DNA of 64,000 nt from Acetobacteraceae bacterium. GTDB taxonomy: Bacteria > Pseudomonadota > Alphaproteobacteria > Acetobacterales > Acetobacteraceae. Under the pieces are notes generated by a model. It saw only the letters and a program-made list of their open reading frames with translations. It had not been told where the DNA came from and searched no databases. Shown one piece after another: positions 1 through 36,011 of this stretch (positions are counted from its first letter, which is position 1; each line of letters starts with the position of its first letter). The DNA is taken from positions 1,535,001-1,599,000 of the forward strand of contig CP039460.1 in NCBI GenBank assembly GCA_004843345.1, written 5' to 3'. Both the position numbers and the translations under genes were made by a program.

Positions 1-1955
<1,955 letters not shown>

Positions 1956-6424: not shown

Positions 6425-7528
6425 TTATTTATTATTTTGTGTTAGTTGGTAAAAGAGTTCGGTCAGTTTCTCTGTGAAAATTTTGCTGCCAGCTTCATTG
6501 AGATGCTGACTATCTTGCATATACTCAAAGTGGTTTAGACTTTCAAAATAGTTTTCATCGATAAATTGAACATTATCCTGTTGGGGAAGCTGCTCTCTTA
6601 TATCTGCGGCATTTGGTAAAGGTAATCTATCTGTCTCGTAAAAAGCATGGGGCATTTGCAAAAAGATAAGTTTCGTTGGTGTATTTTTATATAAAGAGAT
6701 TGTTTTCCCGAGCCACGTTTTTTCATATGCGAGAACCTTTTCACTCTCTTCTTGCTTTTTTTCAATGCTTAAAGGGGGGACATCATATTTTAGGACTTGA
6801 TGGCAGAAACTTTTTCCAAAAGGGCAGGAAAGAATTTCATTCTGCGAACCAATTTGCAGGCCTGAAATAGATTTTGAAACAGCAGACCCTTTATAGAAAT
6901 ATTGGTACTTTTCTTCATCTGTTCTTAGATTATTTCTAAGTCTTTGGCTCGGAATAAATCTTTCTAAATCGTTAATATAAGGACGAGCAGAGAAGAGACA
7001 GGCCTGAGTAAGTTTATACTGGACTTGCCTGTTTGGGTGTTCTTTTAAAAAGGAGAACCATTCTTTTATCCGAAGAAATGAGGCTATTTCCAAGCCTTCT
7101 TCGTATTCTGTGTCATCTCTAGGGTCAAAAGAGGCAAGCGTTTTATAGGATTCTAAAGGAATGATAATAAATTGAAATTTATTGCGATATGGATCTATCT
7201 CTTTGAGCAAGTGATATTGAGTATAGGCTTTTGTTCCAGAGAGTAACAGCGGAATAACCTGAAAAGGGGCATTAGGATTGTTGGTTTCAAGATCTTGAAG
7301 TCTTAATCCAGCCTTCATTAGCGAAGCGCTTGGGATAAAGATATTTTGTTTTTGAGAAGAGACATGCTTGAGAGCATATTTTATTTTTAAGCGTACTGTT
7401 CCTGTGTAGGAATCTGCAAGATAGGTATCGTAAAATCCAGATCTAAAAATAAAATTATCAAGTGAGAAAAAGGCAAGAAGGCTTAAAGATAAGAGGATAA
7501 GAGGGGATTTTGCATTAAATCTACTCAC
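6425..7528 (-). CDS. DltD-like SGNH-fold membrane-anchored protein, copy 2
   Basis: A 367-residue protein with one N-terminal membrane segment (about 8-28) and a large presumed periplasmic domain. The motif PSASL (Ser67, Ser69) and the C-terminal D339-x-x-H342 (MQDSQHLNEAG) fit the SGNH/DltD catalytic Ser and Asp-His pair. I chose GTG at 7528, because AAGGAGG lies five bases upstream; a longer reading from TTG at 7558 would run through that ribosome-binding site. It is clearly paralogous to the next upstream gene (same N-terminus, FIPSASLMKAG-type block, and YxND motifs). It is the last gene of the dlt-like cassette and probably transfers an acyl group to an envelope polymer. Substrate unknown. 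Confidence 0.75.
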   Translation of the reverse strand: MSRFNAKSPLILLSLSLLAFFSLDNFIFRSGFYDTYLADSYTGTVRLKIKYALKHVSSQKQNIFIPSASLMKAGLRLQDLETNNPNAPFQVIPLLLSGTKAYTQYHLLKEIDPYRNKFQFIIIPLESYKTLASFDPRDDTEYEEGLEIASFLRIKEWFSFLKEHPNRQVQYKLTQACLFSARPYINDLERFIPSQRLRNNLRTDEEKYQYFYKGSAVSKSISGLQIGSQNEILSCPFGKSFCHQVLKYDVPPLSIEKKQEESEKVLAYEKTWLGKTISLYKNTPTKLIFLQMPHAFYETDRLPLPNAADIREQLPQQDNVQFIDENYFESLNHFEYMQDSQHLNEAGSKIFTEKLTELFYQLTQNNK

Positions 7529-7597
7529 TTTCCCCTCCTTTGTGCTGTTTCTAGACAAATCTTTGCACGATACACTTTTATAAGCGCTTTACCGTTT

Positions 7598-8704
7598 TCA
7601 AGATATGGGCTTCTCTTGCACACATTGATAGAGGAGTGAAGTAAGCCTTTTGGTAAAAACTTCACTGCCTTGTTTATTTAAATGCTGATAATCTTTCATA
7701 TATTGAAAGTCATTAAGCTGATCAAAATAATGCTCATCTATAAAATGGACATTATGCTGTTTTGGCAAAATATTCTTTAAATCAGGCGCAGTAGAAAGCG
7801 GTTTGCGACTATCATTATAGAAGGCTCGCGGCATTTGAATAAAGACAAGCTGGGTTGAAGAATCTTTATAAAGCTCGAGAATTTTTGTCAGCCAAGTTTT
7901 TTCATAGGCTAGAATTTTTTTACTCAAGACTTCTTTTTGAACTTCAGGAAGAAGGGGGGTGCTTTGTCTGAGATGTGTTTCGCAAAAAGCACCTAAGGGA
8001 CAATAAATAATTTCATTATTGGGACCAAGTTTGACGCCTAAAATAGTATGGGTATCTGATGTTCCTGCGTAAAGCTTATGATAGTTTTCATCATCTGAAT
8101 GAAGGTTTTGAGAAAAGCGGCGGCTTGGAATAAAGCGATCCAAATCGTTAATATAAGTGCGATTGGCAAAAATACAGGCCATACTGAGCTTATAAAAAAG
8201 TTCAGACCCCTTATAGGTTTTTAAAAAAGCTGGACATTCTTGAGGTTTTATGAAGGAAATGATTTCAAGAGCTTCTTCATATTCTGTGTCATCCCCTGGA
8301 TCGAAATTTGAAAGTATTTTGTAAGATTCCGAAGGAAGGATAATTGTGTGATACCTATTATGGGTCGGATCAATAGTTTTTAAAAGATGGTAATGTGTGT
8401 AGGCCGCAGACCCCGAGAGAAAGAGAGGAATAATTGTAAAAGGCGCTTCTGGATTTGCTTTTTCAAAATCATTCAATCGGAACCCAGCTTTCATTAATGA
8501 AGCGCTAGGAATGAGAATGAGGGGATTTTTTGTATTTTCGTGCTCTTTCGCGTATTTTATTTTAATAGGTGCTGTCATACCACCGGGATCGGAAAGATAA
8601 CTCGCATAAAAGCCTGATCTGAAAATTAAAATATCGAGTGCAAAAAAGGCAATGACACTTAGACATAAGAGGGCAAATGGAGATTTGATATTAAGTTTTT
8701 TCAT
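7598..8704 (-). CDS. DltD-like SGNH-fold membrane-anchored protein, copy 1
   Basis: A 368-residue paralogue of the downstream gene, with an N-terminal membrane anchor (about 8-28), PSASLMKAG (Ser67, Ser69) and D338-x-x-H341 near the C-terminus. In dlt systems DltD is the extracytoplasmic component that hands the acyl group to the polymer. It starts 10 bases after the MBOAT stop, so the two genes are probably co-translated. Two divergent copies in tandem suggest two acceptors or two acyl groups. Assignment to the DltD/AlgX-like superfamily rests on motif order and gene context, not on an alignment. Confidence 0.75.
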   Translation of the reverse strand: MKKLNIKSPFALLCLSVIAFFALDILIFRSGFYASYLSDPGGMTAPIKIKYAKEHENTKNPLILIPSASLMKAGFRLNDFEKANPEAPFTIIPLFLSGSAAYTHYHLLKTIDPTHNRYHTIILPSESYKILSNFDPGDDTEYEEALEIISFIKPQECPAFLKTYKGSELFYKLSMACIFANRTYINDLDRFIPSRRFSQNLHSDDENYHKLYAGTSDTHTILGVKLGPNNEIIYCPLGAFCETHLRQSTPLLPEVQKEVLSKKILAYEKTWLTKILELYKDSSTQLVFIQMPRAFYNDSRKPLSTAPDLKNILPKQHNVHFIDEHYFDQLNDFQYMKDYQHLNKQGSEVFTKRLTSLLYQCVQEKPIS

Positions 8705-8714
8705 TTTCTCCCTC

Positions 8715-10103
8715 TTAAAATTGTCCGTAAATAAATTTAACAGCTTTATCTATAGAGAGGGCTGATAGAAGTAAAAGACAAAAACCGTATTGCAACCAAT
8801 TTGGAAAGAAGGAGTCGATTTTTCTTTGAATAGGTTTAAATCCAGGAGCACCCGCACCGACATAAAAAGCGATGATCATACAAAGAGTTGATTGTATGAG
8901 AATCATAGAATTAACGTCGGCGACAGAAAAAGTTCCTCTTGGGGTGTAACCAGAGAGAAGTTTGAGATGGAATAATGTGGTCTTCCAATCTCCTAAATAG
9001 AAAAAAATCTGTGAAAAACTCATAAGAATGAAGGTGAAAATGATCCCAAGAGTCATTCGAATGGCGTTAAGGATTTTTCCTGTGCCGAATAAAAAGTCAC
9101 GCCATTTTTTTGTGAAAAGCGTGACAAGGATGAAGAAAGCATGAAGTGCACCATAAAGCAGGTAATCGAGGAAAAAACCGTGCCATATTCCAATCAGAAT
9201 CATATTTGCAGCAACAGCAATACTGAGCCCAACTTTTCCTAAGTTGCGCAAGGCCATATTTAGAGGGGTAAAAAGATAGTCTGTCAGCCAAGAGGTTAAG
9301 CTCATATGCCAGCGCTGCCACATTTGTTGAATATTTGGCGCAGCAAAGGGAGCATTAAAGTTTTTAGGTCCATCAATGCCAAAGATTTTCCCAACCCCTA
9401 GGGCTATATTGGTATAGCCCGCAAAATCTGCATAAAGTTGCAAAGTATAGCAGGCCGTTAGAAGGCAGAGGATAGAGAAATTATAATCTTGAGGCGTTTT
9501 ATCAATTGTATCGATAAAGCGAGAAAGCCGATCTCCAATAAGAAGCTTTAACATTAGGCCGCCTAAAATAAGGCGGAATCCGTGTTCAATTTGTTCGGGG
9601 TCAGCTTTTCGGACAACGACTTCCCGAAGTTGCGGTAAAAAGTCATAAGCGCGCTGTATTGGACCGCTGACAATTTGCGGAAAAAAAGACGCATAAGCAA
9701 GGAGATAGAGAAAATCTTTTTCGACAGATTCATCGTCCCAATAAACTTCAACAAGGTACGAAATGAGTTTAAAGGAATAATAGGAAATACCCAGAGGCAA
9801 TAAAAAGCCATGCCAAGCGCCCAGAGCTTTAAAGGCAATAAGCATTGCCAAAACTGTGCCCACACCCAGCCAAAGAAAAATGTCTTTCTTATGGTCTTCC
9901 TCGTGGCTTGCGATTTTAAGGCCGCAAAAATAGATCAATGCAGTTGAGATTAAGAGCAAAGGCACATAAGAAAGCTGTGCAAGCGCATAAAATCCCAAGG
10001 AAAAAATAACCAAGAGCAAAAGCCGAAAACGGGCAGGCACAAAATAAAAGGCAACTGCCATTGGCACAAGCGCAAGGTAAAAAGGAAGAGACGTAAAATC
10101 CAT
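8715..10103 (-). CDS. MBOAT acyltransferase, DltB-like, with DltX-like C-terminal tail
   Basis: Polytopic membrane-bound O-acyltransferase of 462 residues. The MBOAT hallmarks are WQRWHMSLTSW (His266) and IGIWHGF (catalytic His308), with a further His321. In dlt systems DltB takes the acyl group from carrier-protein phosphopantetheine and moves it across the membrane. The last residues are KFIYGQF, which resembles the acyl-accepting C-terminal motif of the DltX microprotein, with Tyr459 as the candidate acceptor. This suggests a DltB-DltX fusion. Its start overlaps the carrier-protein stop by one base. It could equally be an AlgI-like enzyme, but the ligase and carrier neighbours favour a dlt-type system. 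Confidence 0.88.
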   Translation of the reverse strand: MDFTSLPFYLALVPMAVAFYFVPARFRLLLLVIFSLGFYALAQLSYVPLLLISTALIYFCGLKIASHEEDHKKDIFLWLGVGTVLAMLIAFKALGAWHGFLLPLGISYYSFKLISYLVEVYWDDESVEKDFLYLLAYASFFPQIVSGPIQRAYDFLPQLREVVVRKADPEQIEHGFRLILGGLMLKLLIGDRLSRFIDTIDKTPQDYNFSILCLLTACYTLQLYADFAGYTNIALGVGKIFGIDGPKNFNAPFAAPNIQQMWQRWHMSLTSWLTDYLFTPLNMALRNLGKVGLSIAVAANMILIGIWHGFFLDYLLYGALHAFFILVTLFTKKWRDFLFGTGKILNAIRMTLGIIFTFILMSFSQIFFYLGDWKTTLFHLKLLSGYTPRGTFSVADVNSMILIQSTLCMIIAFYVGAGAPGFKPIQRKIDSFFPNWLQYGFCLLLLSALSIDKAVKFIYGQF

Positions 10104-10351
10104 TAGAGTTTTTGAGTAATAAGCCTAATTAAGTCACCAACATTGTTCATGCCACGGACTTCTCGGGTTTTTAATTTGATAGAGAATTCTTTTTCAGTGC
10201 CGATAATGAGGGCAATATGTGTTAAAGAATCCCAGTCCTTGACATCATCTGCGGACATTTCTTCTGTAATATTAAGATTAGGATTTTTAAAGACTTTTCG
10301 AAATACACCTGTTAGCCGTTCTTTAATGGCCTTAATATCTGCATCTGCCAT
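10103..10351 (-). CDS. Acyl carrier protein of the dlt-like cassette
   Basis: An 82-residue carrier protein. Ser42 in DWDSLTH is the phosphopantetheine site, and the flanking helices match ACP/DltC length. It should carry the residue activated by the neighbouring adenylating ligase and present it to the MBOAT protein at the inner membrane face. It lies between ligase (26-base gap) and acyltransferase (one-base overlap), the dltA-C-B order. The surface after the Ser (HIALIIGTEKEF) resembles stand-alone ACPs of O-antigen and exopolysaccharide loci as well as DltC. Confidence 0.88.
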   Translation of the reverse strand: MADADIKAIKERLTGVFRKVFKNPNLNITEEMSADDVKDWDSLTHIALIIGTEKEFSIKLKTREVRGMNNVGDLIRLITQKL

Positions 10352-10377
10352 GATTATTCCTTAAATAAACTTTGAGG

Positions 10378-11970
10378 TTAGACTTCATTATCGTCTGTCA
10401 TATAGTGAGGAAGGGCTTTTCGATTAAGTTTGCCGTTATCCAAGCGTGGCAGTGAATCTAGAAGATAGTAATAGCGAGGGATCATATAGATGGGCAAATT
10501 TTTACTCAAGATTTCAAAGAGGATTTCAGACGTATATTTCTCTTTTACCGCTTTTGGTGGCAATACGAAGAAGCAGATCAAATCATCGACAGAGGATTCA
10601 TTGAAAGGATAGCCACTTACAATGACTTGTTCGAGATTAAGCATTTTGCGCAGATGCGTTTCAATTTCCTCTGTTTCCACCCGGTATCCTAAGACTTTTA
10701 ACTGGTGGTCAATCCGCCCTTTGAAAAAGAACACGCCATCTTCATTTTGAGAAACAAGATCACCTGTCCGATACCATCTGCGCATTTTGCCTTGATCTTC
10801 ACGCCAAACGAAAGCGGCCTCGGTTTTTTCTTTATCATCTAGATAGCCATCTGCTTGTTGGGCACCAGAAAGTAAGAGTTCGCCAGCCTCTTCTTTTTCT
10901 GCGATTTTCCCGTCTTCTTTAAGGATGAGAGTTGCGGTTTTTGGAAAAACGGTGCCGATAGGGACAATTTCTCCCTTAAAATGAGGGGGAAGTTCATAAT
11001 CGAGGCAATCTACGGTCATTTCTGTTGGGCCGTAACTATTAACAAGGCGTGTATTGGGAGCAGCTTTTTGCCATGCTTTTGCTGTTTTGGGGAACAAAGG
11101 CGCACCGCTGAAATCTGTCCATTTAAGCTTTGGAAATGTATTTTCTTTTAGAAGACCGCGTTCGAGTAAAATATCGGCGACATTTGGCACAGAATGCCAT
11201 ACCGTAATTTCATTTTCTTGGATAAAACGCAAAGGTGTGAAAACTGTTTTTGCAGAAAGTAAATAAAGCGTCGCACCATTTGAAAAACAAACAGTATAAT
11301 TACCCACAGAAACGTCCCAAGAGAGGTCTACAGGCTGGGCTACCCTGTCTTCTGATGAAAAATGATGGCGTGTATTTATGTTTTCGGTGTACGTAGCCCT
11401 TGCCTTTGTTGAGAGGAGGACACCTTTAGGGGATCCTGAAGAGCCAGAGGTGAAAATAATATAAGCTTCTTCTTTTCCAGAAAGGGTTTTTGGAGAGGCG
11501 ATTTCTTTTGCTGCTATTGTTGGAATAAGTGTGGCATTTAACCCCAATGTCTGCAAGGAGTGCAGAGTTTTTTCATCACCAGCAAATAAAAGAGAAGGAA
11601 AATTCTCTATAAATTCATCAGTGAGCAGTTTTAAGCCGTTTTCATCAATTAACAGGGCGGTGCTTTTTGAAGCGATAAGCTGTTCAGACAGACGGGTAAC
11701 AGGCGCTTTTAGGCTCAGGGGAACATAAGCAATTCCTTGCCAGGCTGTGGCAATAACCCCGATATAGGCAGAAAGGGTTCGGTCGGCCAAAAGGGCCAAC
11801 CGGTTGACATTATTTTTCGAGAGAAGGGCGGCAAAAGCAGCACTTCGATCTCTTAAAACCTGATAAGAAAGCGAAACACCTTCAGGATTAACAATCGCCG
11901 AGCTATTGGGAGATTTTTTAGCAAAATCATCAATATAAGTCGCAAGATTTTTTGTCATTCCTGAGTCCAC
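10378..11970 (-). CDS. AMP-forming amino-acid (or carboxylic-acid) activating ligase, DltA-like
   Basis: An adenylation-domain enzyme of 530 residues. Motifs in order are the ATP loop FTSGSSGSPKG (about 173-183), NSYGPTEMT, WYRTGDL, RIDHQLKVLGYRVE and the C-terminal LDNGKLNRKA with the adenylating Lys. It lacks condensation or carrier domains, so it would charge the separate ACP next door. At the position where DltA has FCGE this protein has FSGA, so D-alanine specificity is not assured. The start is GTG at 11970 or ATG four codons later; neither has an ideal ribosome-binding site. First gene of the cassette; its promoter should lie in the 131 bases before the start. Confidence 0.87.
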   Translation of the reverse strand: MDSGMTKNLATYIDDFAKKSPNSSAIVNPEGVSLSYQVLRDRSAAFAALLSKNNVNRLALLADRTLSAYIGVIATAWQGIAYVPLSLKAPVTRLSEQLIASKSTALLIDENGLKLLTDEFIENFPSLLFAGDEKTLHSLQTLGLNATLIPTIAAKEIASPKTLSGKEEAYIIFTSGSSGSPKGVLLSTKARATYTENINTRHHFSSEDRVAQPVDLSWDVSVGNYTVCFSNGATLYLLSAKTVFTPLRFIQENEITVWHSVPNVADILLERGLLKENTFPKLKWTDFSGAPLFPKTAKAWQKAAPNTRLVNSYGPTEMTVDCLDYELPPHFKGEIVPIGTVFPKTATLILKEDGKIAEKEEAGELLLSGAQQADGYLDDKEKTEAAFVWREDQGKMRRWYRTGDLVSQNEDGVFFFKGRIDHQLKVLGYRVETEEIETHLRKMLNLEQVIVSGYPFNESSVDDLICFFVLPPKAVKEKYTSEILFEILSKNLPIYMIPRYYYLLDSLPRLDNGKLNRKALPHYMTDDNEV

Positions 11971-12101: not shown

Positions 12102-14345
12102 TCATTGTTTTTCCAAGAATTCTTTTCTCAGGCTTACGATGTCTTTTCGTAAATCTTCTTCTGAAGCGGTGAGGAGGCGATTAAAGAAGGCTCTAAGTTC
12201 TTCCTGTTTGTGCGCATTAAAATAGAGAGGATGCTTGCGGAAAAGACGCTCAACGCCTTTGGGAAAATGTTTATCATTTCCTCTAAGGAGATTGCTTAAT
12301 GTGCTGCGGAGAGCTTTCCAAACATAATAATAGGGCGATTTTGATTTTACCATAAAGCCACGCTGATCTTCGAAGACATAGCCTTCAGATTCTTCGTTTT
12401 CCTTTTCTTTTAAAAAGGAGAGAAAGGTTTCCTTGTTTGGTAAAATTGCCTTTAGAGGCGCAAGCTCAACTTCCAGCCATTCAGCCACTTTTTTGAGGTG
12501 GTCATAGGGGAGTTTTTTAAATTCAAGATTTCGGTAGATGACATCTAAAAGGATAAGCTTTTTGGAGGGATAGGAAATAATATGGGGGTCATTGGCAGGG
12601 TCAATAACTTCAAAGATACATGAAACGCCAAAATTTTTATTGAGCGAATAGAGTTTTTCGCCAAGGGTTTGCGAGATTTGTGCCTGAAAGAGTTCTGCAA
12701 ACGGACCCGTTAAATAGTTTTTAGAAGAGGCGAGAAGATAGCCTTCATCATAACCCGTAATGCCTAAAAAGCCATTTTCTTTTAAGCGGGTTGTAATGGG
12801 GTAGGCAAATTTATCAGCGATTTCCTCTAAAGGCAGGACTTCCCCAATGTTGAAAAATTTATCATAGGATCGTGCTGCGATTGTTCCATTTTTTTCATTA
12901 AAAAACAGACCTCTTGCCTTGAGCGTCGTATTATCCCAGCCACCTTTATGGAAGATGTGCCGCTTAAAGCTGATTGAAATTATATTTTCCCAGCCTTTTT
13001 GATGGTTGATTTGGATTCCATCATGGGCTTTCGTTGTCTCAAGAAAAGATTTTGGAAAGGTTATTTTTGTAGCGCTGAAAAGTTGTCTTATCTCTTGGGG
13101 TATCATGACTTCAGCATAGATTTTTTTCTTTACGTCATAGTCAATAAAGGTCTCTTTGGGAAGAAAGCCTTCTTTCCTATGATGGATAGAGCGTAAAGCC
13201 CCGTCAAATTCGACTTTGCCTTCGAGATTAAAAGAATGGTGTCCTGCAAGGATCGGCGCATTCTGTTTGTTCCGATGTCCATGAATTTGGTAAAATTTTG
13301 ACTCTTTTCCGACATTTTCTGAAAAAATACGATCGATATCTGTGTTATAATCCGACCAGCCTTTTTCACACTCATTGGCAGAAATTTTCCAAATCTCCCG
13401 AAAGGGGACAGGCAGGCCGCCATGAGAAACAAAAACCTCTTTTCCATGAAATTGATATGCAAAATAGGAACGCAGGGCACGCAGAAAAATTTTAAATTTA
13501 GATTTTTTTGGCTCCCAGCCCGCCTGAAGTAATTCAGGGAGGGTTTTTTCTGTAAACTCTTTGCTTCTTATTTCTTCTTGGTTATTCCAAGCCCTGAGAT
13601 GGCGCTCATGATTTCCTGCAAGAAGGATAATATTTGGTTTTAAAAGGTTTTCCTGGAAGGCATTTTCCCAGAGAAAATCCATTGTGCCTTTGTTGTCGTA
13701 GCCACGGTCAATATAGTCCCCAACAAAGATATAAAATTTATTCGGCTCGAAACCGTTTGGAAGGAGTTTTTTTAAATGTTTAGAACAGCCATGAATATCT
13801 CCAATTGTGATAATCTCGTCATATGAGTCCAAAATTTTGGATTTTATAGAAAAAGTTTGATTCATATCAAACAGATTGGGAGAAAATATTTTGAGACGCT
13901 TAGAAACTTTTTCTTTTGCTTCTTGGAGGGATTGCCAGATATTTGAGACAATTCCTGGGGAAACATACTGAATGCTTCTTTTACGTTTTTCGTTAAAGGC
14001 AAGGCATTGCTCTAAGGTTGGATCAAAATCGACGATAAACGTTTCATAGCCGTATTTTAAGGCAAGATTTTCCCATGTGCCGATAGCGCGTCCAACCCCT
14101 GTTGAATCGATAATCGTCGTATCCCCTCGGCGAAATCTTTCTCGTATAAGGATTTCCATACGATTAAAAATTTGCCGATTGTAGGATTGATTGATCGTTA
14201 AGCTGCCATCAGAGAGAAAAGTCGGGTTCCCAAATTTTAACCTGAGCTGATCTGTTGAGATTGTATAGGGTTCTAAACCTGTTTCATGGATCCAAGTTGA
14301 TTTTCCACAGCCCGGAGCGCCTCTTAAAATGAGTAACAATCTCAT
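12102..14345 (-). CDS. Trifunctional RNA end-healing and sealing protein (kinase-phosphatase-Rnl1-type ligase)
   Basis: A 747-residue three-domain protein. Domain 1 (about 1-160) is a polynucleotide-kinase-like P-loop enzyme (GAPGCGKST, 9-17). Domain 2 (about 175-400) is a binuclear metallophosphatase (GDIHG 182-186, GDYIDRG 209-215, GNHERH 244-249, HGG 308-310, HGH 355-357). Domain 3 (about 440-747) resembles T4 Rnl1 or fungal Trl1 ligase: KARGLFF, then SYDKFFN, nucleophile Lys522 in LKENGFLG, FEVID, EGYVFED and MVKSKS. It could heal 5'-OH and 3'-phosphate ends and reseal cleaved tRNA. Bacterial Pnkp has the same order but partners with Hen1; no hen1 is visible here. It may form a single-gene unit. 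Confidence 0.85.
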   Translation of the reverse strand: MRLLLILRGAPGCGKSTWIHETGLEPYTISTDQLRLKFGNPTFLSDGSLTINQSYNRQIFNRMEILIRERFRRGDTTIIDSTGVGRAIGTWENLALKYGYETFIVDFDPTLEQCLAFNEKRKRSIQYVSPGIVSNIWQSLQEAKEKVSKRLKIFSPNLFDMNQTFSIKSKILDSYDEIITIGDIHGCSKHLKKLLPNGFEPNKFYIFVGDYIDRGYDNKGTMDFLWENAFQENLLKPNIILLAGNHERHLRAWNNQEEIRSKEFTEKTLPELLQAGWEPKKSKFKIFLRALRSYFAYQFHGKEVFVSHGGLPVPFREIWKISANECEKGWSDYNTDIDRIFSENVGKESKFYQIHGHRNKQNAPILAGHHSFNLEGKVEFDGALRSIHHRKEGFLPKETFIDYDVKKKIYAEVMIPQEIRQLFSATKITFPKSFLETTKAHDGIQINHQKGWENIISISFKRHIFHKGGWDNTTLKARGLFFNEKNGTIAARSYDKFFNIGEVLPLEEIADKFAYPITTRLKENGFLGITGYDEGYLLASSKNYLTGPFAELFQAQISQTLGEKLYSLNKNFGVSCIFEVIDPANDPHIISYPSKKLILLDVIYRNLEFKKLPYDHLKKVAEWLEVELAPLKAILPNKETFLSFLKEKENEESEGYVFEDQRGFMVKSKSPYYYVWKALRSTLSNLLRGNDKHFPKGVERLFRKHPLYFNAHKQEELRAFFNRLLTASEEDLRKDIVSLRKEFLEKQ

Positions 14346-15300: not shown

Positions 15301-16617
15301 TTAATTTAAAGGGGCTGCTGGAAGGACTTCTTTTTGAATATTTCTGCGGATTTTTCGGACCTTTCGCACAGAGACAGGCTTTGCATGGTTTCCCCATGCG
15401 GATCGGATATAGGTAAGGACTTCCGAAATTTGGATATCTGAAAGCATTTCAGAAAAACCAGGCATCGTAAAAGAAGAGGGGGAAATAGAGGGAATAATAG
15501 GGGTACTACCGCCGTTTTCAAGGAGATGAATGAGAGAGGCTGTGTTGGATGAGGTTACGATTGGGTTCTTTTTAAGCGGGGGAAAGGATAAGCCATAGCC
15601 TTGACCGTCACTGCCATGGCAAGAAGCGCAACGATCGATATAAATTTGCTCCCCCCGTGAAAATTGACGATGCTGTTTTTGGATTCCTTCTTCACGGATG
15701 GCCCAATCATTTTCTTTATCGTTGATGGGTGGAAGAGAAAGTAAAAAGGCAGAAATCGCTTTAATATCCTCATCTTTCCAATAGGAAGTGCTTTTTTGAA
15801 TCACTTCGGTCATAGATCCAAAAACATGGCTTTTTGTAGATTTTCCTGTTTTTAAGAAGCGTTCTAAATCTTTCTGTGTCCAGTCTTTGAGGCCGGAATT
15901 TGAATCTTGCCGAAGATTTGGCGCATTCCAGCCTTCCATATTTTGTCCCCCTGAAAGGAAAAGGTGGCTGGTCTCTTCTTCGAGTGTTTGTTCTTGAAGT
16001 GCATTTCCTCTGGGGGTATGGCAAGCACCGCAATGCCCAGCCCCTTCAGCAAGGTAAGCCCCCCGTTTTATCAGGGAATCTTTGGCCTGCGGCGTACTCT
16101 CTGCTTTTGCTTTTTCAGCACTTGGCGCAAAGAAATAACGCCATATTGTTAAAGGCCAGCGAACATTAACGAGCCAAAAGATTTTTTCTTTTGGAGCCGG
16201 TTGATGAACAGGGGCAACTGCTTTTTGAAAATAGAGATAGAGATTATGGATTTCTTTATCACTTAGATGCGCATAAGAGGGATATGGCATCGCTGGATAA
16301 AGAGATTTCCCATCCTTGCGGACACCTTCACGAACGGCTTTTGAAAATTCCTGTTCGGTGTAAGTGCCAATACCATAGGTTAAATCGGGCGTGATATTGG
16401 TAGCGTAGATAAGTCCCGTTGGAATGGCAAAGGCAAGTCCGCCAGAATATTCGGGCTTATCTTTGAGCGTATGGCATGCAGCGCAATCGGCTAAAAGAGC
16501 GCTATATCTTCCAGATTCAATTTGTGTTTTGAGTTGAGAGGCCAAGCCTGCTTGGACAGAAAAGGTGAAGGTCGCTAACGCAAAGAAACAAGCTATTGGA
16601 AAGATAAAGCGTTTCAT
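15301..16617 (-). CDS. Triheme cytochrome c subunit of membrane-bound FAD dehydrogenase
   Basis: A 438-residue exported protein (signal peptide about 1-23) with three heme-c motifs: CAACH (45-49), CGACH (196-200) and CASCH (330-334). This is the layout of the cytochrome subunit of acetic-acid-bacterial gluconate, 2-ketogluconate, sorbitol and alcohol dehydrogenases. It accepts electrons from the FAD subunit and reduces ubiquinone at the periplasmic face. The basic C-terminal segment after the third cytochrome domain may help membrane attachment. It starts 4 bases after the large-subunit stop. The substrate cannot be read from this subunit. Confidence 0.93.
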   Translation of the reverse strand: MKRFIFPIACFFALATFTFSVQAGLASQLKTQIESGRYSALLADCAACHTLKDKPEYSGGLAFAIPTGLIYATNITPDLTYGIGTYTEQEFSKAVREGVRKDGKSLYPAMPYPSYAHLSDKEIHNLYLYFQKAVAPVHQPAPKEKIFWLVNVRWPLTIWRYFFAPSAEKAKAESTPQAKDSLIKRGAYLAEGAGHCGACHTPRGNALQEQTLEEETSHLFLSGGQNMEGWNAPNLRQDSNSGLKDWTQKDLERFLKTGKSTKSHVFGSMTEVIQKSTSYWKDEDIKAISAFLLSLPPINDKENDWAIREEGIQKQHRQFSRGEQIYIDRCASCHGSDGQGYGLSFPPLKKNPIVTSSNTASLIHLLENGGSTPIIPSISPSSFTMPGFSEMLSDIQISEVLTYIRSAWGNHAKPVSVRKVRKIRRNIQKEVLPAAPLN

Positions 16618-16621
16618 CTGA

Positions 16622-18430
16622 TCAATCCCGACAGAGAGGGTCAGGTTTTTTTAAGTAGGTTTCTTTTATTGCTTTTGCAGACCAATAGGCTAAAGCCGCA
16701 ACGAGACCTGTTGGATTATAAGTGATGCTATGAGGAAACGCACTTGCGCCAATTACAAAAAGATTATGAAGTTCCCAGCTTTGGAGATAGGGATTTACGG
16801 CACTGATATTCGGGTTATCGCCCATAACGGCTCCGCCTCCTAGATGGGTTGTTTTATAGTCTGAAGTATTAAAGGGTGCGGAAAGATGGTTTAGCTTCCA
16901 TTTTCTGGCATTTAGCTGGTTTGCAATTTGTGGGATTTTGCCTGTGACATAGCGGTTCATTTTAATATCATTCGAATGCCAGTCGAATGTCATGCGCAGC
17001 AGGGGCTGCCCGTAAGCATTTTTCCATGTTGGATCAAGATCAAGGCAATTATTCCTGTAAGAGAGCGAGTTTCCATGAGAGTCAATTTCAAAGGAATGTT
17101 GATACATGTCTTTGAGACTTTCTTTAAAACCATGACCCCAGTTGCGTTTTGCTTGGGGTTTATGGTTCACCGCAGCGCCAATAGGACGTAATCCTGACTG
17201 GTTTACCCATAAGGCGCTTCCGCCAATGAAACCTAATTTTTGGGTATCTAAATGAGGGAGCGTGAAATCATCAATGGCGACACCACTGCCGCCAGCTCCG
17301 ACAAATTGATTGATTTGTGTTTCTTTATCAAGGAAAATCCGAGAGGTGGAAAGAGATTGGTAGTGAAAATTTTTACCGACGGTGCCTTTCCCTGTTTTTG
17401 GATTGTAGATTTCCCCAATTTTAGAGAGTTGGAGTAAATGAACATTATTCATCGAAAAAGCACCTAAAATGACGATTTCAGCTTTAACTTTTTGTGTTTT
17501 TCCTGTTTTTAAGTTTGCAAAAGTGACGCCTGTCGCACGTTTTTTGTCTTTGCTTTTGTCAATGTGCAGAACATGTGCAAGTTCAATGAGATGGAAAAGA
17601 GGGGAAGGATAAAGGGCAGGAAAAATATTCACATTAGGCGATGCCTTGGAATAATTATAACAGTTATAGCCACCGCAATAGCCACAGAAATTACATGCCC
17701 CCATGTCACATTTATAAGGGTTTTTATAGGCTTTTGAGGCGTTAGCAGCAGGAATTGTATAGGGGTGGAAGCCTGCTTTTTGACAGCCTTCCCGAAAAAG
17801 TGCGCCTGAGTAAGTTTCTCGCAGGGCCGGCAGAGGAAAGTTTTCAGAACGATCTGGGGCGAAAATATTCCCTTTTCCGACAATTTTTCCCTTAACTGTA
17901 TAAGCTTCTCCAGAAGTGCCAAAAACTTTTTCTGCTTTTGTAAAAAAAGGCTCTAAATCTGTATAGGAAACACCAAAATTTTGTAAAATCATATCTGGAG
18001 GAATAAGGCCATTTCGGTAGGCTTGTTTTCCGTAGCGCTCTTCAAGATATGTTTTTAAATGCAGCTCTTCTGGGATAACCCTGAAATGACAACCAGCCCA
18101 ATGAAGGCCAGCGCCGCCAACGCCTGTTCCTAATAAAAAAGCGCCAGCACGCCGATAAGGCAGAGCTTGCTGGGAGAGGTGGTTGCGGATGGTAAAAGTA
18201 CTTTTGGATAAATCTTGAAAGAGGTGATGGCGAAAATTTCCTCTTAATTCATCAATGCTTGCAGGATAAGCGCCTTCAAGGGCAGTATTACGTTTTGGAC
18301 CACGTTCTAGAACAATGACAGAAAGGCCGGCCTCTGTTAGTTCTTTTGCCATAATCGCGCCAACCCAGCCTGCGCCAACAATGACAACATCCGCTTTAAG
18401 TGTCGAGTTTGAGGCGGAAATCTCGGTCAT
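16622..18430 (-). CDS. GMC-type FAD dehydrogenase large subunit (gluconate 2-dehydrogenase-like)
   Basis: Flavoprotein subunit of about 602 residues in the glucose-methanol-choline family. The FAD motif VVIVGAGWVGA is at about 15-25. A Cys-rich stretch (Cys241, 246, 249, 252, 257) is positioned like the [3Fe-4S] cluster of FAD glucose and fructose dehydrogenases. The C-terminal HLGGGAVMG and FPHSITYNPTG carry the GMC catalytic His and Asn. I place the start at the ATG of MTEIS (18430), which overlaps the small-subunit stop as ATGA; a 12-codon longer reading lies inside the small subunit. It is likely exported with the Tat-bearing small subunit. Gluconate, 2-ketogluconate, sorbitol or glucose are all possible substrates. 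Confidence 0.93.
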   Translation of the reverse strand: MTEISASNSTLKADVVIVGAGWVGAIMAKELTEAGLSVIVLERGPKRNTALEGAYPASIDELRGNFRHHLFQDLSKSTFTIRNHLSQQALPYRRAGAFLLGTGVGGAGLHWAGCHFRVIPEELHLKTYLEERYGKQAYRNGLIPPDMILQNFGVSYTDLEPFFTKAEKVFGTSGEAYTVKGKIVGKGNIFAPDRSENFPLPALRETYSGALFREGCQKAGFHPYTIPAANASKAYKNPYKCDMGACNFCGYCGGYNCYNYSKASPNVNIFPALYPSPLFHLIELAHVLHIDKSKDKKRATGVTFANLKTGKTQKVKAEIVILGAFSMNNVHLLQLSKIGEIYNPKTGKGTVGKNFHYQSLSTSRIFLDKETQINQFVGAGGSGVAIDDFTLPHLDTQKLGFIGGSALWVNQSGLRPIGAAVNHKPQAKRNWGHGFKESLKDMYQHSFEIDSHGNSLSYRNNCLDLDPTWKNAYGQPLLRMTFDWHSNDIKMNRYVTGKIPQIANQLNARKWKLNHLSAPFNTSDYKTTHLGGGAVMGDNPNISAVNPYLQSWELHNLFVIGASAFPHSITYNPTGLVAALAYWSAKAIKETYLKKPDPLCRD

Positions 18431-19176
18431 AAGGAAGTCGTGCCATTCTCTTCTTGGAGTTGCCAAAAACGTTGCATTTTTTCAAAGGAAAGGGGGATTG
18501 CAACAGGTTTGTAAGGATAGGGCGCACCATGTTGGTTAATCCATTTCATAAATTCTGCGCGGGCCCCGGGAAATCCAAGATATTCCCAGCCTTTCATTTC
18601 TGTATTTCCGCCATAAAGCGGATCAGAAAAAACGCCTTCTAAAACATTTTGTCTTAGCTGTGTAAAAAAGACCGAACTTGGAATATCTCCAAGATTTATT
18701 TGGTCATCTTCAAGATTTTCTAAAATCTGAATTTGTGTTTCTGAAGGAAGGTTTACAAAAGATTTTTCATGAAAGTTGTCTTTGATCCAAGCAAAAAGTC
18801 TGCTTAAGGCGGTTTTGTAGAGATCATAAGGCGGATACGGGAGCTGGTATCCTAGAGCGTGGTCTCCCTGTACAAAAGGTCCTGAGAGATAAGTTCGTTC
18901 TCCAAAGCCGTAGGGCATTGCAAGTTGACGTTCAAGATAATCAACAACATGGAGGCCTTTCTTATCGTGCGTCAGGTCTTCTGTTGGAAAAATCAGTTGA
19001 GAGGCAATTTCAAGGAACTGGCGTTCTTCTGGTTGAAAAAGGAGAGAGCCATGTGTGTAAGCATTGCCCTTGGTACACCCCGTAAAGGAGAGTAAAGCAA
19101 TGCAGCTACTGCTTCCGAAAAGAAAATTGCGGCGTGTAAAGGGTACAATATTGTCGGAAAGAAGGTGCTGGCTCAG
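18427..19176 (-). CDS. FAD dehydrogenase small (gamma) subunit with Tat signal, probable CTG start
   Basis: Subunit 3 of gluconate-type dehydrogenases, which escorts the large subunit through Tat and helps cofactor assembly. The first ATG (18918) gives only 163 residues, but the frame is open upstream and encodes FTRRNFLFGSSSC followed by a hydrophobic lipoprotein-like LLSFTGC, a Tat signal. No ATG, GTG or TTG occurs in that upstream stretch. A CTG at 19176, with AAGGA seven bases before it and overlapping the preceding TGA, gives 249 residues, near the family length. Start assigned by inference; a sequencing indel is the alternative. The stop overlaps the large-subunit ATG. Confidence 0.8.
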   Translation of the reverse strand: MSQHLLSDNIVPFTRRNFLFGSSSCIALLSFTGCTKGNAYTHGSLLFQPEERQFLEIASQLIFPTEDLTHDKKGLHVVDYLERQLAMPYGFGERTYLSGPFVQGDHALGYQLPYPPYDLYKTALSRLFAWIKDNFHEKSFVNLPSETQIQILENLEDDQINLGDIPSSVFFTQLRQNVLEGVFSDPLYGGNTEMKGWEYLGFPGARAEFMKWINQHGAPYPYKPVAIPLSFEKMQRFWQLQEENGTTSL

Positions 19177-34496: not shown

Positions 34497-36011
34497 ATGG
34501 TTTTTTCTGAAAAAAAATATGGGCGCATCCTTGTTATTGGGGATGTGATGCTGGATCAGTATATTTTGGGGCGTATTGACAGGATTTCTCCCGAAGCGCC
34601 TGTCCCTGTTCTGCGAGAGAAAAATTTATATGCTGTTCCTGGCGGTGCAGCAAATGTCGCGGCGAATCTTGTTGCCTTGGGTGCGAGTGTAAAACTGATT
34701 GGAATGTGCGGGGAAGATTCTGAAGGTCAGAAATTGCGTACGCTTTTGGATCAGCTTGTTTTTGAAGAAAATAATCTTTCCCAGTTGGCAAAGGCACAGG
34801 GGGCAGGAAAAGTTGATACTTCCGGGCTTATTGCTTGGAAAGGGCGGCCAACGACAGTTAAAACGCGTCTTGTGAGCGGTAATCAGCAGATTGCAAGGTT
34901 GGACCGTGAGGAAACTGGAGAGTTTCCTGTCTTTATCTGCCAACAAATCATTCAGAAAGCGCAAGAGGCACTCGAATGGGCAGAGGTTGTGGTCTTCTCT
35001 GATTATAACAAAGGATGTTTAGAGGGCGGTATTTTTCAGAAAATTGCTGAATTTACGCAAAAGAGCGGCAAGCCTCTTTTGGTGGATCCTAAGCAAGCTG
35101 ATTTGTCTTTTTATAGAGGCGCTTCTCTTTTAACCCCTAATAAATCGGAACTTTCAAAAGCAACATCTTTTTCATTGGAGACAGAGATAGAAATTGAAAA
35201 AGCTTTAGCGCTTGCCGCAGAATCTTCAGGTGCAGAAATTCTACTGACACGTTCTGAAGAGGGCATGTCCTTGCGGAAACAAGAGGGAGATGTTCTGCAT
35301 TTTCCCGCAGAAAAAGTGGAAGTTGCTGATGTTTCTGGGGCAGGTGATACGGTTTTGGCAACGATTGCCGTGATGCTGGCGCGTGGTCTCGCACTTGAAG
35401 AAGCTGTTAAAGTTGCGATAGATGCAGCTGCCTTAGCCGTTTCACGCCATGGTACAGTCCAAATTACGCTTCAATCTTTGCGGCAAAAAATTAAATCTTA
35501 TTTAGAATTTGGAAAAGTGATTGAGCCTTTTGCTCCCATTTTTGAACAAGCGGTGGAGGCAGGGCGTTTTTGCAAAGAAATAAGGGAAAAGAAGAAACGG
35601 ATCATTTTTACAAATGGCTGTTTTGATATTCTTCATCTTGGACATTTGCGCCTCTTGCAGAAAGCTTCCTCTTTGGGAGACTACCTGATTGTGGGCTTAA
35701 ATACAGATGCCTCTGTTAAACGGCTTAAAGGCGCTCAACGCCCTCTTCAAAATCAAGAAGTTAGGGCTGCTTCTTTGGCGGCTTTGCGTTGGGTGGACAT
35801 GGTCGTTTTGTTCGATGAGAATACGCCTGCAGCTCTTTTGAAAGAGCTTGCTCCGAATGTGATTGTTAAGGGGGGGGATTACCGCCCTGAGGAAGTTGTC
35901 GGCGGAGAGGATGCAGAGGTTTTTCTTTTCCCCCTTGAGGAAGGATATTCGACAACGTCTTTTTATCAAAAACTTTTAAGAGATAATCAGGGTCAAAAAG
36001 GAGAGTTATAG
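34497..36011 (+). CDS. hldE: Bifunctional heptose 7-phosphate kinase/1-phosphate nucleotidyltransferase
   Basis: A 504-residue HldE (RfaE) fusion. The ribokinase-type half (1 to about 320) has GGAANVAANLVALGA and DVSGAGDTVLAT; the second half (about 365-500) is a nucleotidyltransferase with TNGCFDILHLGHLRLL. Together they make ADP-heptose precursors for the lipopolysaccharide inner core. Cytoplasmic. Directly followed by the AGE-family gene with one base between stop and start, so probably co-translated. Confidence 0.96.
   Translation: MVFSEKKYGRILVIGDVMLDQYILGRIDRISPEAPVPVLREKNLYAVPGGAANVAANLVALGASVKLIGMCGEDSEGQKLRTLLDQLVFEENNLSQLAKAQGAGKVDTSGLIAWKGRPTTVKTRLVSGNQQIARLDREETGEFPVFICQQIIQKAQEALEWAEVVVFSDYNKGCLEGGIFQKIAEFTQKSGKPLLVDPKQADLSFYRGASLLTPNKSELSKATSFSLETEIEIEKALALAAESSGAEILLTRSEEGMSLRKQEGDVLHFPAEKVEVADVSGAGDTVLATIAVMLARGLALEEAVKVAIDAAALAVSRHGTVQITLQSLRQKIKSYLEFGKVIEPFAPIFEQAVEAGRFCKEIREKKKRIIFTNGCFDILHLGHLRLLQKASSLGDYLIVGLNTDASVKRLKGAQRPLQNQEVRAASLAALRWVDMVVLFDENTPAALLKELAPNVIVKGGDYRPEEVVGGEDAEVFLFPLEEGYSTTSFYQKLLRDNQGQKGEL

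Follow-up and report, generated by a model that had tools for sequence, protein, structure and literature searches.

The window, that is, the whole stretch of 64,000 nucleotides that was analysed (Acetobacteraceae bacterium, assembly GCA_004843345.1, contig CP039460.1, positions 1,535,001 to 1,599,000), was found to contain a cassette of five genes at positions 6425 to 11970, which was read from its sequence as a carrier-fed MBOAT/SGNH system that would attach an amino acid to a surface glycan through an ester bond. The probability of this reading was put at about 0.6. Judged by its proteins, the cassette resembles the Gram-positive dlt system in how it would work, but it is put together differently, in mix-and-match fashion, and is not a member of dlt. 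An earlier note on this DNA had described a dlt-like acylation cassette with a ligase, a carrier, an MBOAT and two SGNH-type genes in tight order on one strand. The layout was recovered at the same coordinates from the open reading frame (ORF) list of the window, with five tightly packed ORFs, all on the minus strand and spaced by -1 to about 70 bp, and the expected catalytic residues were all found by motif reading across the five proteins. The carrier-fed MBOAT/SGNH set was retained whereas membership of dlt was not, as the DltA and DltB cut-offs were missed, DltD was unmatched and the ligase pocket was not D-alanine-like. The features were as follows, in gene order.

10378..11970, minus: AMP-forming amino-acid:carrier ligase (DltA/AlmE-like, stand-alone adenylation domain), by Pfam, TIGR01733 and the pocket code
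10103..10351, minus: carrier protein, 82 aa, DSL motif with Ser42, by acyl carrier protein (ACP) models and likeness to the carrier of a cassette in genome G866
8715..10103, minus: MBOAT acyltransferase, 462 aa, His308, fused tail FIYGQF with Tyr459, by Pfam MBOAT and a DltB structure match
8715..8735, minus: codons of the C-terminal hexapeptide FIYGQF and the stop, at the end of the MBOAT gene
7598..8704, minus: SGNH-type membrane-anchored acyltransferase 1 (SGNH1), 368 aa, Ser69/Asp338/His341, by invariant residues and the SGNH fold
6425..7558, minus: SGNH-type membrane-anchored acyltransferase 2 (SGNH2), tandem paralog of SGNH1, by 53% identity to SGNH1 and kept catalytic residues

The ligase probably starts at the ATG at 11958 rather than at the listed 11970, and SGNH2 probably starts at the GTG at 7528, directly behind the strong ribosome-binding site AAAGGAGGGG, giving 367 aa. 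Promoter and terminator scans returned matches at chance level only.

In the proposed route, the ligase would activate an amino acid with ATP and load it onto the carrier, the pocket pointing to serine or a short diamino acid. The MBOAT would take over the aminoacyl group of the carrier and bring it through the inner membrane to its own Tyr459, as its conserved residues suggest, and the acyl-tyrosine would then act as donor to the catalytic serine in one of the two anchored SGNH proteins, in which the triad is conserved. The acyl-tyrosine chemistry of such tails has been shown experimentally in PatA and in DltB/DltX (PMC12148441 for PatA). The SGNH protein may then place the group on a periplasmic or outer-membrane glycan, lipopolysaccharide (LPS) or exopolysaccharide, as the neighbours of the sister cassette in G866 suggest. 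In this view the cassette is a carrier/MBOAT/SGNH system in which the donor has been swapped, its sister using an FkbH glyceryl loader.

Ligase pocket and carrier

The ligase was found to contain the motifs TSGSSGSPKG, YGPTE and RTGD together with NGK-Lys514. It matched Pfam AMP-binding with an E-value of 2e-56 and TIGR01733 with 289 bits, and it fell below the curated DltA cut-offs, with 276 bits against 476 for PRK04813 and 265 against 560 for TIGR01734. Among solved structures, the nearest single-purpose ligase was 4oxi (230 bits), which we take to be AlmE, followed by DltA with 177 bits. Alignment with reference adenylation enzymes gave the ten-position pocket code D-V-G-H-D-S-S-V-D-K. Seven of the ten positions were equal to those of the serine-activating EntF of E. 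coli (DVWHFSLVDK), including His at 278 and Asp at 331 (GrsA numbering), whereas three of ten were equal to those of Listeria DltA (DLMVLCTVAK). The residue Asp219, which grips the amine of the amino acid, was found to be kept, and an amino acid is therefore expected as the substrate. From the pocket residues, the substrate is predicted to be serine or a short diamino acid and not D-alanine. A literature search with adenylation specificity codes as strings returned no match. The carrier matched the PP-binding models below their cut-off and the ACP models with E-values down to 4e-8.

MBOAT, tyrosine tail and SGNH pair

The MBOAT was found to contain a WHG motif with His308 and matched Pfam MBOAT (E 3e-23) and DltB of known structure (E 1e-25); it was the only MBOAT of the window genome at E-values up to 0.001. 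Its C terminus was read as VKFIYGQF with Y459, as the earlier note had it (KFIYGQF, Tyr459), and the chance probability of a C-terminal FxYxxF was about 1e-4 to 5e-4 per protein. The tail had been taken in that note for a fusion of DltB with DltX. The shuttle hexapeptide is indeed present in cis and aligns with the end of Listeria DltX (KFIYNEF), and no separate DltX-like ORF was found by an FIYxxF-stop pattern over the genome or by a looser pattern within the window. Three other genomic matches to the FIYxxF pattern were rejected, one being a 7-residue fragment, one a match without a stop codon and one a frame of 24 codons that lacks a membrane segment.

The special character of this fusion did not survive, because an FxYxxF-type tail was found at the end of every tail-readable MBOAT in the class survey (L004-L032 except L018, whose MBOAT was not reported by the survey's filter and so lies outside the tail count). 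An MBOAT relative from Acidobacteria also ended in a tail of this type. Among bacterial MBOATs of this kind the fused tail is ordinary, and its chemistry is already published: the tail tyrosine of PatA is acylated by PatA itself, and the acylated hexapeptide serves PatB as donor (PMC12148441). The FIYG tail was tried as a mark of carrier-fed systems and was dropped, since F was found at that position in most FkbH cassettes and the tail of Neisseria PatA is FIYANF. A structure model of the MBOAT, built from a two-sequence alignment, had a mean predicted local distance difference test score (pLDDT) of 41 and was unusable. No MBOAT relatives were found in viral contigs.

The MBOAT was also no nearer to DltB than others of its kind. 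With the NCBIfam DltB model it scored 182 bits against a cut-off of 375, whereas seven non-DltB MBOATs (from the class, the family, Acidobacteria and Metabacillus) scored 158-174 bits, a tail-less MBOAT (L096) 195 bits and a true DltB 535 bits. Since other MBOATs score alike, this match carries no information on dlt. In the tree, the MBOATs of the window and of G866 were found to be sisters (support 100/100) on a long stem, and the window MBOAT stood apart from DltB with 98/99 support on long branches; a clade uniting the window and G866 MBOATs with DltB had an approximately unbiased test value (p-AU) of 0.26 and was not rejected.

SGNH1 and SGNH2 were found to be 53% identical, each with one N-terminal hydrophobic helix, and are an old duplication in which the triad is kept in both copies. 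The residues Ser69, Gly98, Asp338, His341, Asn343 and Gly346 of SGNH1 were invariant in six family members, and the catalytic residues of SGNH2 were Ser79/Asp349/His352, numbered in the listed ORF. Neither protein matched Pfam DltD (PF04914), NCBIfam or PHROGs, and SGNH1 matched no PDB sequence. The DltD family (PF04914) was not found in 60 genomes (the window genome and relatives), and an hhalign comparison of the six-member SGNH profile with Listeria DltD gave a probability of 1% and no alignment. With the structure model of SGNH1 (mean pLDDT 59), the top 11 Foldseek matches were all DltD, with probabilities of 0.99-1.00 and TM-scores of 0.34-0.37. The 50 matches listed by VIA-align contained SGNH hydrolases and PatB at Z 10.5-12.7, including TesA and PAF-AH at Z 12-12.7 over 160-180 residues; that DltD is missing from these 50 is uninformative either way. 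On this model, the SGNH fold is secure whereas the likeness to DltD is suggestive only. The DltD-like genes of the earlier note were thereby kept as to the SGNH fold and Foldseek rank and not as to sequence profile. Viral contigs and plasmids yielded no SGNH relatives. That the pair carries out two obligatory steps in series is unlikely, because the G866 cassette has one SGNH only; a better guess is that they serve two acceptors or positions.

Related cassettes and competing readings

The SGNH subfamily was found in 5 of 397 genomes of the family, the window genome included, and one of the other four finds was a fragment. The cassette of G866 (locus L072), from another genus of the family, was found to contain in the same order a carrier of 53% identity, an MBOAT of 45% identity ending in FIYGQF and one SGNH of 27% identity, with an FkbH-domain protein above the TIGR01686 cut-off in the place of the ligase. 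FkbH has been proposed to charge a carrier with glycerate taken from 1,3-bisphosphoglycerate (PMC13122637). Such a glyceryl loader independently fits the serine-like pocket of the window ligase, since glyceryl and seryl, which differ only by OH versus NH2 at C2, are almost alike in shape. The G866 cassette was flanked by genes for an epimerase, WcbI, a GT9-TylF protein and an AT3 acyltransferase, and because sugar-polymer genes surround it, its acceptor is probably a surface glycan. In L073 and L074 of the family and in L033 of Acidobacteria, a subfamily SGNH was found beside an MBOAT and no carrier was detected; these are presumably acyl-CoA types.

A profile of the window and G866 carriers was searched in 337 genomes of the class, of which 22 matched. 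Eighteen loci were fetched around carrier matches, and an FkbH-like gene was present in 17 and an MBOAT in 15 of them; the FkbH model was matched by all 14 FkbH-like proteins tested, and most of the MBOATs were found to contain the fused tail. No relative of the window ligase replaced FkbH in the 18 loci, so that the window cassette has no counterpart in this sample. Two loci contained a complete but tail-less MBOAT, each with a small separate ORF beside the FkbH, carrier and MBOAT genes. The ORF of L096 (50 codons, hydrophobic) was found to end in FEYRVF at 1723-1743 (plus) and that of L103 (38 codons, hydrophobic) in FVYQNF at 8357-8377 (minus), and by their endings both are candidate DltX-like microproteins in Alphaproteobacteria. 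The Metabacillus plasmid pB218 (L036, 4108-8454) contained a carrier, an AMP ligase, an MBOAT ending in FIYGGF and an SGNH-like protein. Its ligase was without the amino-acid-binding Asp, and the locus is a Gram-positive carrier-fed cassette for a different, probably non-amino-acid acyl group.

With Dlt (DltA, DltC, DltB, DltX and DltD; D-alanylation of teichoic acid), the window cassette shares an ATP-dependent ligase, a carrier, an MBOAT, an FxYxxF shuttle and an SGNH transferase in one operon, whereas it differs in the shuttle on the MBOAT instead of a DltX microprotein, in the pocket, in two SGNH proteins outside the DltD family and in the Gram-negative host. With AlmEFG (Vibrio cholerae, glycine on lipid A) it has in common a Gram-negative host and a stand-alone amino-acid ligase with a carrier; the 4oxi pocket, read from the alignment, differs from that of the window, and AlmG is not known to be an MBOAT. 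The FkbH/carrier/MBOAT cassettes of the class share with it the carrier and a mostly fused-tail MBOAT, and G866 also the SGNH subfamily and the exact FIYGQF, but their loader is a HAD-type FkbH, for which a glyceryl group is expected, instead of an amino-acid ligase, and G866 has one SGNH instead of two. PatA/PatB, the system of peptidoglycan O-acetylation, shares an MBOAT with catalytic His and a C-terminal FxYxxF in cis together with an anchored Ser-Asp-His SGNH; PatA uses acetyl-CoA without ligase or carrier, whereas the window cassette encodes both in its operon. Other MBOAT/SGNH pathways are stated to be without a carrier protein, and the current account is two-way, with a carrier and a separate DltX in Dlt and with acyl-CoA and a fused tail in other MBOAT-SGNH pairs (PMC12148441). 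The window cassette and its FkbH-fed relatives join a carrier protein with a fused tail and so cross this division.

A wider proposal, held at slightly less than even odds, is that envelope acylation in Alphaproteobacteria is modular, one carrier/MBOAT/SGNH core being served by interchangeable loaders (FkbH for glyceryl; a ligase for serine or a diamino acid) to give glyceryl, seryl or diaminoacyl esters of glycans, with the shuttle mostly fused and elsewhere supplied by DltX-like microproteins. The core may take different small polar acyl groups according to its loader, so that loader genes would predict the ester on the glycan. Through such cassettes the surface glycans of Gram-negative bacteria may acquire amino-acid or glyceryl esters, and such groups can change surface charge and the sensitivity to antimicrobial peptides.

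Several observations weigh against the main reading of the window cassette. Descent of its MBOAT from the main FkbH-linked MBOAT clade was rejected as a single clade (p-AU 0.001), which leaves the G866 sister as the one link of the window core to FkbH; as this union was rejected and that with DltB was not, the carrier-fed architecture was probably assembled more than once. The SGNH box was found to be PSAS, without the usual glycine of GDS. No glycan-assembly genes adjoin the window cassette itself. In the ligase pocket, Gly223, Asp286 and Ser312 differ from EntF, so that serine is not certain and the substrate may be a short diamino acid.

This last point leads to the strongest of the competing readings, in which the group is a diamino acid (2,4-diaminobutyrate or ornithine) and the ester formed would carry two positive charges and repel antimicrobial peptides. 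The pocket was found to contain an extra acidic D286 with Gly223, Ser288, Ser312 and Asp321. If the code for 2,4-diaminobutyrate is taken as DVGEISSIDK and that for ornithine as DVGEIGSIDK, the window pocket shares seven of ten positions with the former and six of ten with the latter. His259, however, stands where both have an acidic residue, and the sister with its glyceryl loader points to a hydroxy acid of three carbons. This reading was considered unlikely. A true Gram-negative dlt system, in which D-alanine passes through DltA/DltC, a DltB with fused DltX and two DltD proteins to LPS or another anionic glycan, was considered somewhat less likely again. The same five functions in one operon, the closeness of the Listeria DltX end, the first rank of DltD structures in Foldseek and the surviving joint MBOAT clade with DltB agree with it, but the pocket shares few positions with DltA, the curated DltA and DltB cut-offs were missed widely, DltD was unmatched, the DltB-model score lay within the range of other MBOATs (158-195) and the G866 sister carries a glyceryl loader and no alanine ligase. 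A small secreted aminoacyl metabolite or lipid, made without polymer decoration, is very improbable: stand-alone ligase/carrier pairs are known in natural-product clusters and FkbH occurs with an MBOAT in suomilide clusters, but no condensation or thioesterase domain was found, the G866 sister sits among polysaccharide genes, and an MBOAT with an anchored SGNH is the pattern of polymer acylation (PMC12148441).

Genomic surroundings

The genome G001 of the same genus was found to contain the syntenic neighbours of the cassette (61-98% identity), with the five genes missing between the same two convergent genes and about 0.76 kb retained at the empty site. The GC content at third codon positions was 0.30-0.38 in the cassette against 0.37 +/- 0.04 elsewhere, values that are not decisive for a foreign origin or between gain and loss. 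Gain by the window lineage rather than loss in G001 is favoured because the spread of the cassette is patchy.

At 34497-36011 (plus) of the window, a kinase and cytidylyltransferase protein of the HldE type was found, which suggests a heptose-containing LPS as a possible acceptor. The region 12102-14345 (minus) was found to encode a 747 aa protein with kinase, metallophosphatase and T4-type RNA ligase domains, which is RNA-repair-like and Pnkp-related; the genome contains a second copy of about 48% identity, and the same-genus genome has two. The region 15301-18918 (minus) contained genes for a GMC oxidoreductase and a cytochrome c with a third small gene in front, which is, by layout only, the arrangement known from the three-subunit membrane dehydrogenases that act on sugars or alcohols in acetic acid bacteria.

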